Positions 11,154 through 15,428 of a stretch of 41,741 nucleotides of DNA are shown in pieces. Position numbers and translations under genes: made by a program. The notes under the pieces were generated by a model that saw nothing but the letters and a program-made list of their open reading frames with translations, had not been told where the DNA came from and searched no databases. Positions within the stretch are counted from its first letter, which is position 1. Every line of letters begins with the position of its first letter. Source of the stretch: Lachnospiraceae bacterium (GTDB lineage: Bacteria > Bacillota > Clostridia > Lachnospirales > Lachnospiraceae); the NCBI GenBank assembly GCA_030536455.1, contig JAUNPZ010000005.1, positions 1-41,741 on the forward strand, in the 5' to 3' direction.

Positions 11154-11173
11154 TCCCTTTGTCTGTTTACTTT

Positions 11174-13621
11174 TTATTCCGATGCTTTCATAATTCCTAC
11201 TGCTTTTCCCAGTATTCTGAACTGCTCTGTATTTACCATCATTGGCTCATACTCGTCATTTTCAGGTATCAGAAGCACAAAACTTCCCATACTGCGGAAT
11301 CGTTTTAATGTTACATTTCCATCTAATTCAATGGCTGCAATTTGCCCATTATCAACCGTATTGGTTCGACGCAGAACCACATAATCACCATTCTCAATAT
11401 CCGCATTAATCATCGAATTTCCTTTTACTGTCAGCAAAAAAGTTTCTGAAGGCGCACTCAGCCATTCAAATGGCAATGTGCAAATTTCCACCATCTCTTC
11501 CTGCATCTCAATCGGACTTCCTGCTGCAATATCTGCAAATACCGGACAACGTACCACTCGCTCCCCGCTAAGGGTATGCTGAACTCCTTCACAATTAATA
11601 ATCACGTCTTCCGGACAATCCTCATCTCGCAGAAAGCTGTATTTTTTATTTTTAACCAGATCAACATACTGATATTCTCTGATACTGGACGGCAGCATGG
11701 AAGTATCAAATACTGGAATATCCTCTATCTCGCTTCCATCCTTTTCAAATATTTTCAAAGAATTACCATCGGTAATCATACCATAGCAGTTTTCCGGTGT
11801 AACTGCCATGTAGGATTTTAATTGCTCCTCTCCGCTTTCTATTCCGGCCCGGTACTGTTTGGTTTCAATAAAAATGTAAGGTATCATTTTATTGTTTTTA
11901 TAAACAAAAACAACAATATCTACGAATCCTGCTTTAGAAAATGTCTGTACCCGAAATTCAATTCCAAGCAAATCAATTGGATAATGATAAGTTTCCCGAA
12001 GTTCCTTTAAGACCCACTGACGAATTTTTTCCTCTTTATTGTATGGATCAGCAATCTTATCCGCAAACAGGTAATCCTTCATTGGAACATCTGATAAACT
12101 GCGAAATCTCACGCCATCCTTCAGTTTTAAAAATTCAGGACTGATACAGGATATAAATCTGGACGGTTCACCGTGACAGCTCATATAAAGCCGTTCTGTT
12201 GCTCTTGTCATTCCTACATACAACAGCTTTCTTTCCATTGTCTCAGCATAATTCGGATCATCGTTTTCCTGCCTTAACATCTGATTTGGAATCAATTTAT
12301 CAGAAAGTCCAATTAATATTACAACTTTAAATTCCAATCCTTTAATTGAATGCATCGTTAATAATTTAATTGTATTTTCATTGAAATCAATCCCGTCCTG
12401 TTTTGAGTAAAGTGTACTTTTGATCTCTTTTTTAAGTTTTATCTGAAACTGTTCCAAAATCTTTTTTGTTCTGGCAACAACTGCAATTTCTTTCAATTCA
12501 TAACACTTCACAAGCTTCTCTTCCAACAACCGTTCCACTTCATCTATTTCTTCATCTAAAGTATTATATCGACGAAATACAGGATATACCCCCTGCTTAT
12601 CAATCAGAGACGGCTTCACGAAATTATCATCACTTACAATCTCTCCATCGGATTCAATTAAACTATATGCAGCCTCTGCAATCTGTGTTGTGGTGCGGTA
12701 ATTCTTCGCCAGTGAAGTACTCTTTCCTTTCATATCCAAGCCAATACTGGTAAAACTTCTTCCTTTGATTAACCAGGATGTGTTATAAATACTCTGTGCT
12801 GTATCTGCCACGAACATAATACTGCTATACTCTTTTTCAGAATCATATAGCTGCATTAAACACTCCAATTGCACTTTAGATAAATCCTGACTTTCATCTA
12901 TAATAATATGAGTATATCGTTCCACGGTATGCGTTTTCAGATATTTTAATGCATATAATCCCACATCCTGAAAATCACATAATCCTTCTGCATTCAATGC
13001 CTTTGTATATAAAACCATCAATTCGTGAATCGCTTGTCTGGTTGGACTGTTTTTCATTAATTTTTGGGGTCCGTCTCCCCCGCTTCCTGTCCGTCCTAAA
13101 CGGTCAGCTACCTGATATGCTTCGACATCAATCAGATTACACGCCTTAATCCATGAAATTTCCTTCTTCAGAAATCCAAGGTATTTCATATTTAAAATTT
13201 TCACATTATCAAAGGATTTCCTCAATTCAAAAATACATCTCTCCCAAATGTGAATTTCCTGCTGTGAACTTGCAAATTCTAATTTTCTCTTATTTTCCTT
13301 ACAAAAAGCACGAAAATAACCAAAAAGCAGCTTATCAATATTTGTAATTCTTACATTTTCTTTTTTATCCTTCGAATCAAACAAGCTGTACTGCTCGTCC
13401 TCTTCAATCTGTTCATATATGTATTCAATATAATTAGTCAGACTTTTGTTAAATGTCACCATAAGAATACGATCCTGCGGACTAAAGCAATAATTATTCA
13501 AAAGAAACGGAATGCGGTGAACAGCCACAGTAGTCTTACCAGAACCAGCAACTCCTTTAATCATCGACTGGCCCATAACTGTACTATGAATCAATTTCTT
13601 TTGTTCCATATTCAACTGCAT
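11174..13621 (-). CDS. UvrD-like helicase / PD-(D/E)XK-like nuclease / LexA-type peptidase fusion
   Basis: 815 residues, start 13621 with GGAGG 7 bases upstream. Residues 1-490 form an SF1 UvrD/Rep-like helicase: Walker A GVAGSGKTT (23-31), Walker B IIIDESQD (239-246), motif III MFVADTAQSIY, motif IV NYRT (307-310), motif V TMHSIKGLEF (422-431) and motif VI LLYVGMTRATERLY. Residues about 535-630 resemble the HsdR N-terminal nuclease: Glu555, FVDIVV with Asp568, IETK with Glu586 and Lys588, then a Gln at 600. Residues about 685-815 are an S24/LexA peptidase: cleavage site FADIAAGSPI (Ala700-Gly701), GNSM with Ser736, VTLKRF with Lys773. The 37-residue Ser-Lys distance equals that of E. coli LexA. 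There is no HTH. The gene is clearly more AT-rich than its neighbours and stands alone, suggesting horizontal transfer. A role in DNA defence or repair, switched by self-cleavage, is inference. Confidence 0.92.
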   Translation of the reverse strand: MQLNMEQKKLIHSTVMGQSMIKGVAGSGKTTVAVHRIPFLLNNYCFSPQDRILMVTFNKSLTNYIEYIYEQIEEDEQYSLFDSKDKKENVRITNIDKLLFGYFRAFCKENKRKLEFASSQQEIHIWERCIFELRKSFDNVKILNMKYLGFLKKEISWIKACNLIDVEAYQVADRLGRTGSGGDGPQKLMKNSPTRQAIHELMVLYTKALNAEGLCDFQDVGLYALKYLKTHTVERYTHIIIDESQDLSKVQLECLMQLYDSEKEYSSIMFVADTAQSIYNTSWLIKGRSFTSIGLDMKGKSTSLAKNYRTTTQIAEAAYSLIESDGEIVSDDNFVKPSLIDKQGVYPVFRRYNTLDEEIDEVERLLEEKLVKCYELKEIAVVARTKKILEQFQIKLKKEIKSTLYSKQDGIDFNENTIKLLTMHSIKGLEFKVVILIGLSDKLIPNQMLRQENDDPNYAETMERKLLYVGMTRATERLYMSCHGEPSRFISCISPEFLKLKDGVRFRSLSDVPMKDYLFADKIADPYNKEEKIRQWVLKELRETYHYPIDLLGIEFRVQTFSKAGFVDIVVFVYKNNKMIPYIFIETKQYRAGIESGEEQLKSYMAVTPENCYGMITDGNSLKIFEKDGSEIEDIPVFDTSMLPSSIREYQYVDLVKNKKYSFLRDEDCPEDVIINCEGVQHTLSGERVVRCPVFADIAAGSPIEMQEEMVEICTLPFEWLSAPSETFLLTVKGNSMINADIENGDYVVLRRTNTVDNGQIAAIELDGNVTLKRFRSMGSFVLLIPENDEYEPMMVNTEQFRILGKAVGIMKASE

Positions 13622-13704
13622 ACTTTATCCTCCATCACCCTTGCTTTAAACCATCTGCTTTGTAAAACCGGCTTAGCTTATTTATTCACGCTCATATACA
13701 GCAT

Positions 13705-13764
13705 TTTACTCTATCTGTATATTCTTACAATGATTCTATCATAATACTTATATTCTTACAATGA
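13705..13764 (-). promoter_or_regulatory. Tandem promoters within a 31-bp direct repeat upstream of the helicase fusion
   Basis: TATATTCTTACAATGA occurs at 13718-13733 and again at 13749-13764. On minus each copy supplies TTGTAA as a -35 box: one is followed after 17 bases by TAGAAT, the other after 16 by TAAAAT. The 16-bp identical copies set 31 bases apart (about three helical turns) also look like a double operator. No GAAC-N4-GTTC SOS box was found by eye. Confidence 0.6.
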
Positions 13765-13862
13765 AGTTCTTAGATTCCACGTACTTGACAAACAACAGAT
13801 TTCTCCTTTAAGCGCTCTTGCATGCAGCTTTGCTGATTGCCGCAATACTGACTTATTCTCAT
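13765..13862. other. Intergenic stretch without recognised features
   Basis: Together with the promoters and terminator on either side this is the only gene-free stretch above 300 bases (13622-13961). It contains a plus-strand TTGACA at about 13785 without a gene to serve. I see no RNA gene, attachment site or ORF of note. Confidence 0.4.
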
Positions 13863-13908
13863 AAAAAATAGCCGTCCTGCTTCTTAATCGGAGCGACGAC
13901 TATTTTTT
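13863..13908 (-). terminator. Terminator after the first NSS transporter gene
   Basis: A 14-bp arm AAAAAATAGCCGTC (13863-13876) pairs, with one mismatch, with 13895-13908 around an 18-base loop. The ends are A6 and T6, so it can work on both strands. It lies 54 bases past the stop at 13962. Confidence 0.8.
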
Positions 13909-13961
13909 AACATAACAATTCACCGGAACAAGCGAGATTCAGTCACCATTCAGCTAACCTG

Positions 13962-15428
13962 TTAATTTTTCCCCGGCTTCCTCGCCACCGCACAGGTAAT
14001 CACAAATCCCAGCAGCAGAACCGCCACCGCCATCCAGCAAGCCAGGCGCAGAGTGCTTCCTTTGCGGAACATATCGTAATATCCCTTCAGGTAGATTACG
14101 ATAATGGCGGCCGGAATGCACCAGGAAACGTACCATTTTAAGCCCTTGGGGAATGAAATGCCTTTTCCGGCATTCACTTCCTGCAAGAAGCTGTCCCAGC
14201 CCCAGCCGTTCTTTCTGGTACAGAACAGCACATAGCCCAGGCTGCCTAACGGAAGCAGGTTATTGGAAACAATGAAGTCCTCCAAATCCATAATGTTGGT
14301 TCCGCTGCCCAGCGGCTGGATGCCGGAAAGCACGTTAAAGCCAAGGACACACGGCATACTGAGCACCATGATGGCCACAGCGCTTACCACCACGCTCTTC
14401 TTTCTGGACCAGTGGAACAAATCCATATCGAAGGAAATCAGGTTTTCAAATACCGCAATAATCGTGGTAAGTGCGGCAAAGGTTAAGAATAAGAAGAACA
14501 GCGCTCCCCAGAATCTTCCGCCCGACATCTGGGCAAAGATGTTCGGCAGCGTGATAAATACCAGGCTCGGACCGGCCCCCGGCTCGATTCCGAAGGAGAA
14601 GCATGCCGGAATGATGATGAATCCGGCCATCAGCGCTACAAAGGTATCCAGAACCGTAATGCTCAGCGCCTCTCCGGTCAGGCTCTGCTCCTTTGTCTGG
14701 TAGCTTCCGAAAATCAGCATTGCGCCGATTCCGATGGATAAGGTAAAGAAGGACTGGCTTAATGCGCCGAATACCACATTGCCGATGCCCTGCTCCAGCA
14801 TCTTGTTAAAGTCCGGAACCAGGTAGAAGCGGATTCCCGCATCGGCTCCCTCCAGCGTGAAGGAATGACCGGCCAGGACCACCATAATCAGGAGCAGCGC
14901 AGTCATCATTACTTTGGAAACCTTCTCGATTCCATTTTTCAGACCGAACAGGCAGACTAAAAAACCAATCACACAGATTAAAACCGTCCAGAAGGTCATC
15001 AGTCCCGGATTTCCCAGCATATCGCTGAACGCGCCGGATACCACCTCCGTGGAAACGCCCGCAAAATCACCTTTGATGCTGCGGTAACAGTAATACATCA
15101 TCCAGCCGCCTACCATGGTGTAGAACATCAGAAGCATGTAGCAGCCGACAATGCCGATTCCCTTCATCCAATGCCAGCAGGAGCCCTTCGGTTCCAGACG
15201 CTCAAACGCAGCCGCCACGCTCCGTCTGCTTCCCCGGCCAACTGCAAATTCACAGACAAGCACCGGGATTCCAAGCAGCACCAGAAAAGCCAGATAAATC
15301 AGGATAAATGCCGCTCCGCCGTATACTCCGCACATATACGGGAACTTCCATACGTTGCCCAGTCCTATGGCACAGCCGGCCGAAACCAGGATAAATCCCA
15401 GCCGGGAGCCAAATTTTTCTCTTTCCAT
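13962..15428 (-). CDS. Sodium-dependent transporter, NSS (SNF) family
   Basis: A 488-residue integral membrane protein of the LeuT fold. It starts MEREKFGSRLGFILV, and TM1 carries the unwound Na+-site signature CAIGLGNVWKFPYM, followed by GGAAFILIYLAF. TM6-TM8 features (FFTLSIGIGAMLIFGSY, FENLISFDMD) are in place. Eleven to twelve membrane helices are expected. The family imports amino acids or related amines with Na+. The start at 15428 has AGGAGG 7 bases upstream and a strong promoter. The gene is divergent from a LysR regulator, the usual layout when the regulator controls the neighbour. Substrate not predictable. Confidence 0.93.
   Translation of the reverse strand: MEREKFGSRLGFILVSAGCAIGLGNVWKFPYMCGVYGGAAFILIYLAFLVLLGIPVLVCEFAVGRGSRRSVAAAFERLEPKGSCWHWMKGIGIVGCYMLLMFYTMVGGWMMYYCYRSIKGDFAGVSTEVVSGAFSDMLGNPGLMTFWTVLICVIGFLVCLFGLKNGIEKVSKVMMTALLLIMVVLAGHSFTLEGADAGIRFYLVPDFNKMLEQGIGNVVFGALSQSFFTLSIGIGAMLIFGSYQTKEQSLTGEALSITVLDTFVALMAGFIIIPACFSFGIEPGAGPSLVFITLPNIFAQMSGGRFWGALFFLFLTFAALTTIIAVFENLISFDMDLFHWSRKKSVVVSAVAIMVLSMPCVLGFNVLSGIQPLGSGTNIMDLEDFIVSNNLLPLGSLGYVLFCTRKNGWGWDSFLQEVNAGKGISFPKGLKWYVSWCIPAAIIVIYLKGYYDMFRKGSTLRLACWMAVAVLLLGFVITCAVARKPGKN

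Follow-up and report, generated by a model that had tools for sequence, protein, structure and literature searches.

Domain architecture of the protein encoded at 11174..13621

The stretch of DNA analyzed here (the window) covers positions 1 to 41,741 of contig JAUNPZ010000005.1 of a Lachnospiraceae bacterium (assembly GCA_030536455.1), and the gene in question is an open reading frame (ORF) at positions 11174..13621. It is read from the minus strand into 815 amino acids (aa); frame 1 of the plus strand is interrupted by stops. The initial annotation had the coordinates and the length right and left out the strand. It had described a UvrD-like helicase followed by a nuclease and a LexA-type peptidase, an order in which each domain is recovered by Pfam above its cut-off. 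The features of this protein, called the long form below, are as follows.

11174..13621, minus strand: long form, whole ORF, helicase-nuclease-LexA protein of 815 aa (ORF and Pfam)
12122..13621, minus strand: superfamily 1 (SF1) UvrD/Rep-like helicase, residues 1-500 (Pfam, fold match to UvrD/PcrA/Rep, invariant residues)
13532..13555, minus strand: Walker A motif GVAGSGKT, residues 23-30 (sequence and homologue alignment)
11702..12037, minus strand: PD-(D/E)XK-like nuclease (HSDR_N_2), residues 529-640 (Pfam and structure model)
11918..11920, minus strand: nuclease Asp568 (76 of 76 homologues)
11858..11866, minus strand: nuclease Glu586-x-Lys588 (76 of 76 homologues)
11552..11701, minus strand: beta-rich linker, residues 641-690, also kept in a short form described below (model; columns 90% filled in 29 short forms)
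11186..11551, minus strand: LexA-type S24 peptidase, residues 691-812 (Pfam, NCBIfam, profile searches)
11519..11524, minus strand: predicted self-cleavage site Ala700-Gly701 (76 of 76 long forms, 30 of 30 short forms)
11414..11416, minus strand: predicted nucleophile Ser736 (76 of 76 long forms, 30 of 30 short forms)
11303..11305, minus strand: predicted base Lys773 (76 of 76 long forms, 30 of 30 short forms)

All four Pfam domains exceed their cut-offs. UvrD-helicase matches residues 3-280 (5.8e-24) and is followed by UvrD_C (8.8e-25), HSDR_N_2 matches residues 529-635 (9.2e-19, with 68 bits where 25 are required), and Peptidase_S24 matches residues 693-808 (4.9e-30). No helix-turn-helix (HTH) model of Pfam matches residues 1-640; helicase and nuclease models match there instead, which bears out the earlier suggestion that a helicase-nuclease takes the place of the DNA-binding head of LexA. 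In the NCBIfam collection the protein passes the LexA equivalog (TIGR00498, 119.8 bits against a cut-off of 110.95), while its UmuD subfamily score is 60.5 bits versus 110 and the remaining chain is a helicase-nuclease. The UvrD, PcrA and Rep equivalogs give 64-126 bits, far short of their cut-offs of 911-1168, and the AddA equivalog gives 61.2 bits versus 707.65. Based on these matches, the protein is assigned as a UvrD-like helicase, an HSDR_N_2-type nuclease and a LexA-type S24 peptidase on one chain.

Conservation and structure of the long form

By scanning the contigs of other genomes, 138 loci were confirmed, of which 80 were kept; by their titles these 80 are nearly all from Bacillota, with Desulfosarcina in addition. 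The alignment holds 76 intact proteins of 792-820 aa, comprising 72 of the 80 scan loci, the window protein and three distant relatives from a family search (L036-L038). The omitted loci are L117, L120 and L121 (cut at contig ends), L125 (truncated at both ends), L118, L119 and L123 (broken frame), and L062, whose frame of 822 aa is intact and which was dropped on a technicality of joining. In L117, L120 and L121 the residues still present match expectation, and L125, devoid of S24, retains the catalytic residues of the helicase and the nuclease. The median pairwise identity is 44%, and at less than 80% identity the set falls into 52 clusters, the three distant homologues not counted.

The residues on which catalysis would depend are unchanged in 76 of 76 homologues: Gly26, Lys29, Asp242, Glu243, Gln245, Arg309 and Arg473 of the helicase; Asp568, Glu586 and Lys588 of the nuclease; and Ala700, Gly701, Ser736 and Lys773 of the cleavage site and peptidase. 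The residues named initially are thus all in place, and the survey of relatives returns the same three-domain order with both the Ser/Lys dyad and the D...ExK residues kept. Thr30 is Thr in 75 homologues and Ser in one, and Ala699 is Ala in 71 of the 76. The Ser-Lys spacing is 37 in the window protein and in 69 of the 76 homologues, as in E. coli LexA, and 38 or 39 in the other seven. In 9 of 11 pairs the ratio of nonsynonymous to synonymous substitution (dN/dS) of the S24 domain is 0.009-0.095, as low as that of the helicase; in the other two pairs dS is saturated. The S24 domain is therefore under strong purifying selection, and the view of it as a degraded relic is ruled out by the invariant residues together with the low dN/dS. 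The three-domain architecture is old and conserved.

The AlphaFold2 model, built with 55 sequences, has a mean predicted local distance difference test score (pLDDT) of 87.1 and a predicted template modelling score (pTM) of 0.74, and places strands at residues 647-684, between the nuclease and the S24 domain. Among the Foldseek matches listed, UvrD, PcrA and Rep come first and AddAB, AdnAB and RecBCD next. A search of solved structures with the nuclease alone returned one chance match (E 0.42). With the S24 profile (A2), LexA is retrieved at 3.9e-33, UmuD at about 8e-22 and lambda CI at about 1e-8, so the S24 domain is classed as LexA-type rather than phage-repressor-type.

A short form made of half a helicase and the S24 domain

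A second, shorter architecture was found among the relatives. The short form of genome G663 has 495 aa and joins helicase residues ~1-320 to the linker and the S24 domain (locus L180:2834-4321, corresponding to G663:C44:192833-194317; further loci are L182-L211). The alignment columns that correspond to residues 330-480 and 529-640 are unfilled in 29 short forms. For the 206 genomes in the clostridial family of G663, a hand count of listed rows gives at least 104 with the short form, in a frame that spans almost the whole query. In 30 short forms chosen regardless of motifs, the Ala-Ala-Gly, Ser and Lys of the S24 domain are retained without exception. Motifs II and III of the short-form helicase are decayed: 19 of these 30 no longer have the catalytic Glu of motif II, and 23 no longer have the Gln. 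The Walker A Lys is present in all 30, and nucleotide binding may therefore persist.

A tree built from 33 long forms and 35 short ones requires at least two changes between the forms on strongly supported branches, and the short-form pair L228/L229 nests within the long forms beside L061/L065. The tree was made by a quick method with Shimodaira-Hasegawa-like approximate likelihood ratio (SH-aLRT) support only, some of its branches are long, and its short forms, like the 20 loci compared for common neighbour families in this section, were picked by patterns akin to one requiring the Ala-Gly and Ser motifs. As judged from this tree, the short form arose at least twice. The upstream regions of 29 short forms show no SOS-box-like site, and at most 6 of 20 short-form loci have a neighbour family in common. 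The short form was considered as an obligate partner of the long form and rejected, since many listed genomes show only one of the two. The short form points to an independent role of the half-helicase with S24, for which our guess is a regulator or a partner pairing through S24.

The upstream region

Exact GAAC-N4-GTTC, the SOS box, is found in none of 73 long-form upstream regions, and 11 of its 12 positions are reached in two; among 1358 control segments the corresponding figures are 0.2% and 7.7%. By the same scan, all 11 host lexA genes of the genus, within which the host boxes were checked, carry an SOS box at 11 or 12 of 12 positions. This sets the gene apart from ordinary SOS genes, and any control by RecA would act at the level of the protein. 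Upstream of the window gene, the following features were recorded.

13733..13761, minus strand: promoter-like site TTGTAA-N17-TAGAAT (weak evidence; 3 sites versus a shuffle mean of 1.4)
13718..13764, no strand: two exact 16-bp direct repeats (13718-13733 and 13749-13764) flanking the promoter-like site (repeat search)

The repeats are a possible operator; they were not seen by eye in the upstream regions of five relatives.

Host genome, insertion site and distribution

The host genome encodes a separate LexA of 205 aa, so the window protein is not the LexA of the cell. Among 20 positive genomes, 19 have a LexA whose match takes in the HTH part of the profile; the sole match above the cut-off in G603 is the fusion itself. 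Within the genus, the full-length protein occurs in 2 of 11 genomes, a split copy in one (G005; locus L118, without residues ~491-560 and the catalytic Asp) and a three-piece relic in another (G007; L006:1420-1854). The gene is thus sporadic and decaying within the genus. In a sample of the family, the nuclease query matches in 13 of 299 genomes, and frames of 793-830 aa are present in six of these; in a sample of the phylum 28 of 398 match, with full-length frames of 815-869 aa in 15, the own genome included.

The window gene is flanked by an RpiB-like gene and an SNF-family transporter gene, both named by eye. The same two genes are 155, 146 and 389 bp apart in the congeners G001, G002 and G003, compared to ~2.95 kb in the window. 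Judged by these three empty sites, the window copy is a lone-gene insertion of ~2.8 kb, in agreement with the stand-alone character first suggested.

11159..13989, no strand: approximate lone-gene insertion between the RpiB-like gene and the SNF-family transporter gene (empty sites in G001, G002 and G003)

The transporter gene of G004 is separated by 1.44 kb from an aldo-keto reductase-like gene, the next one out from the insertion, which leaves no room for the gene. In G006-G010 the flanks were not found on a single contig. The site in G005 (L173:763-11667, G005:C10) spans ~10.9 kb with TRAP-transporter and FAD-enzyme genes by eye, which makes it a variable spot. No mobility gene was seen in the ~2.8 kb insertion of the window copy, and alignments of the window to L047, L048 and L118 are confined to the gene itself (blastn, E<=1e-5). 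One of 72,556 plasmid records, an Ilyobacter megaplasmid, covers at least 80% of the gene. A phage origin was rejected: none of 50,697 phage records covers 80% of it, and viral contigs give two weak partial matches.

As regards a possible replacement of AddAB, AddA is above its curated cut-off in 8 of the 20 positive genomes; the remaining 12 have weaker matches, possibly to further UvrD-type helicases. Positive genomes without an AddA match above this cut-off include four (G648, G485, G627 and G605) from a single genus.

Neighbouring genes and defence context

Many long-form copies have no common neighbour. A NERD-HRDC gene is a repeated companion: of its 10 loci, eight have it 15-40 bp upstream, one has it 20 bp downstream, and at the last the distance is 3.3 kb; its domains were checked in one member. 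In Clostridium this gene adjoins the long-form gene (e.g., L052:8906-9982) and is a likely operon partner there. A fixed partner gene was rejected, as the neighbours vary and the NERD-HRDC gene is not in the window. Genes for an HNH_4 protein, a MazG-like protein and a PLD-SF2-DUF3427 helicase also recur near Clostridium copies (L051, L069, L071 and others).

For comparison with known defence systems, a random 105 of 176 long-form neighbours (120 to <1300 aa, the two nearest genes per side at 51 diverse loci) and 119 short-form neighbours (three nearest per side at 20 loci) were searched with PADLOC at E<=1e-30. Among the long-form neighbours 59 families were hit, several on the same protein, and among the short-form neighbours one family with two members. 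Counted as proteins, no fewer than 9 of the 105 long-form neighbours match defence genes, compared with 2 of the 119 short-form ones (Fisher two-sided p 0.027). The distinct long-form neighbours comprise PDC-M26A (4), PsyrT (2), PsyrA (1), UG10 of the defence-associated reverse transcriptases (DRT) (1) and ZorA (1). Ten hand-picked neighbours gave matches to ZorA2/ZorB2, PsyrA, PDC-M26 and a ThsA/LmuA-like protein of the SIR2 type; one of the ten had no match at E<=1e-8. PsyrA and PsyrT matches lie upstream of one long-form copy. At L053:12468-16136 the long-form gene, a NERD-type gene, ZorA2 and ZorB2 stand in a row, possibly a Zorya variant or an island, and at L090:12458-15805 a DRT UG10 reverse transcriptase gene (1.1e-263) follows a long-form copy by 34 bp. 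Defence-gene neighbours, which the initial annotation proposed to look for, are thus present in some lineages (Zorya, DRT, PsyrTA, PDC-M26) and missing at the window copy itself.

Comparison with known systems

The window protein shares with LexA (TIGR00498) the S24 peptidase, the Ser-Lys dyad and the Ala-Gly site. However, LexA has an HTH head and an SOS box on its own gene, whereas the window protein has a helicase-nuclease head and no SOS box and coexists with a separate host LexA. UmuD, which also has S24 in common, is an autopeptidase belonging to DNA-processing machinery; it serves as a small subunit of a polymerase, with no enzyme joined to it in cis, and the window S24 matches it more weakly than LexA. 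AddAB, AdnAB and RecBCD, whose SF1 helicase fold matches that of the window protein, likewise carry a helicase and a PD-(D/E)XK-like nuclease on one chain, and to our knowledge they have no S24 domain. The window protein differs in its HSDR_N_2 nuclease and falls far below the AddA cut-off. The same nuclease domain is found at the N-terminus of HsdR of type I restriction systems, whose motor belongs to SF2 instead of SF1; no hsdM or hsdS was recognized beside the window gene.

Among defence proteins, the best PADLOC match of the window protein is C3a187 (NERD and UvrD, 2.5e-39). GajB, the UvrD-like helicase of the Gabija defence system, matches to 1.4e-35, with the best-matching listed stretches confined to the helicase; we know of no nuclease or S24 domain in GajB. 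No gene like GajA, the TOPRIM-ATPase partner in Gabija, was recognized beside the window gene or among the 25 of 59 PADLOC families listed for the 105 neighbours. Nhi-like single-protein nuclease-helicases embody the same idea of one-protein defence, and no S24 domain is known to us in Nhi and similar proteins. For Gabija, DNA devoid of RecBCD has been proposed as the target (PMC12407980), a parallel to the mechanism proposed below.

A literature search, thin on subscription journals, returned no description of the long or the short form, in line with the earlier statement that no characterized protein has this domain order. Each part is known by itself; a single chain that unites them and retains three active sites is new, and the short form is newly found here. 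Self-cleavage by S24 has been described in repressors and in UmuD. Here the S24 switch stands in cis with a helicase-nuclease, and the catalytic residues of the three domains are conserved, mostly across Bacillota.

Proposed mechanism and alternative explanations

In our judgement, the chance is about even that the protein works as an accessory enzyme of DNA processing, most likely a helicase-nuclease directed against viruses or mobile elements, with its own LexA-type control switch. The helicase would feed DNA to the nuclease, as in AddAB, RecBCD and AdnAB. Such an enzyme would harm the host unless restrained, and the S24 domain, which may pair two molecules, could provide the restraint. Once the S24 domain meets RecA on single-stranded DNA (ssDNA), the Ala700-Gly701 bond would be cut, leaving a fragment of residues 1-700 that ends in -Ile-Ala-Ala. 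Cut E. coli LexA ends in -Val-Ala-Ala, and ClpXP destroys the fragment with that end. Because of this likeness, cutting would probably disarm the enzyme. In this way host breaks would escape once RecA is loaded on them, and invading ends that do not load RecA would be degraded. RecA-stimulated self-cleavage that switches the enzyme off is thus the most likely form of control, with off rather than on as its least secure step.

Several observations weigh against this proposal. The short form retains S24 without a nuclease or a complete motor, so the peptidase does not serve nuclease control alone. The Ala-Ala-Gly sequence is the cleavage site of the host LexA as well and is therefore no special sign of a degron. 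The window copy is not among defence genes, and the neighbours common to several Planococcus species are not defence-like by eye, which fits a stable house role there. The enrichment of defence genes is modest, the 105 proteins were sampled from 176, and sampling differed between the long-form and the short-form set (two versus three genes per side); of ten large neighbours checked singly, eight had no PADLOC hit and two matched (UG10 and PsyrT). Some LexA-like proteins, moreover, act without RecA, as described for IrvR (PMC7101444).

A more specific form of the proposal, which we put forward tentatively, is an immune nuclease gated by RecA, in which self and non-self are told apart by RecA loading and the same switch split off at least twice as a self-cleaving pseudo-helicase regulator. 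The enzyme would cut off its own S24 domain at RecA-ssDNA and be destroyed. In the short form, the clean loss of half the motor and of the nuclease would have left a regulator now common in one clostridial family, with a dead half-helicase in place of the HTH head, forming a second damage-responsive layer beside LexA.

Cleavage could instead act as an ON switch, in which an S24 dimer restrains the nuclease and RecA-ssDNA from infection or damage frees an active helicase-nuclease, as UmuD is converted to UmuD'. We consider this rather unlikely. The precedent of UmuD, chains of which are retrieved by the same S24 profile, and the position of S24 behind the nuclease on a short beta-rich linker in the model speak for it; however, the freed N-terminal fragment would bear the -IAA end, a possible degron, and activation tied to RecA would presumably fire on ordinary host damage too.

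A host DNA-repair enzyme acting at RecA filaments seems improbable. The S24 domain would dock, the helicase-nuclease would trim or strip DNA and self-cleavage would release it, the defence neighbours being incidental. The LexA-type S24 domain, the fold matches to AddAB, AdnAB and RecBCD and the shared neighbours in Planococcus are consistent with such a role, but it fits poorly with a single-gene insertion that has empty sites in three congeners, with full-length frames in only 15 of 398 phylum-sample genomes and with the defence-gene neighbours. Least probable is an S24 domain that serves for dimerization and as a stress sensor cut without RecA, for instance by another infection signal, for which IrvR is a precedent (PMC7101444) and against which stand classical LexA as the best match of the domain and the Ser-Lys spacing of 37 in most homologues.

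If the RecA-controlled helicase-nuclease is real, the RecA damage signal would bear directly on whether an enzyme that degrades DNA persists or is lost, and the way in which immune nucleases leave the host chromosome intact would become testable with point mutants. The short form shows that retaining the switch pays even when the enzyme is gone. Since the window protein exceeds the LexA equivalog cut-off, automated naming may label it LexA; one of two short-form proteins tried exceeds it as well (see L228:5691-7226), and annotation can thus hide both forms under the LexA name. The Ilyobacter copy is annotated as an S24 family peptidase.

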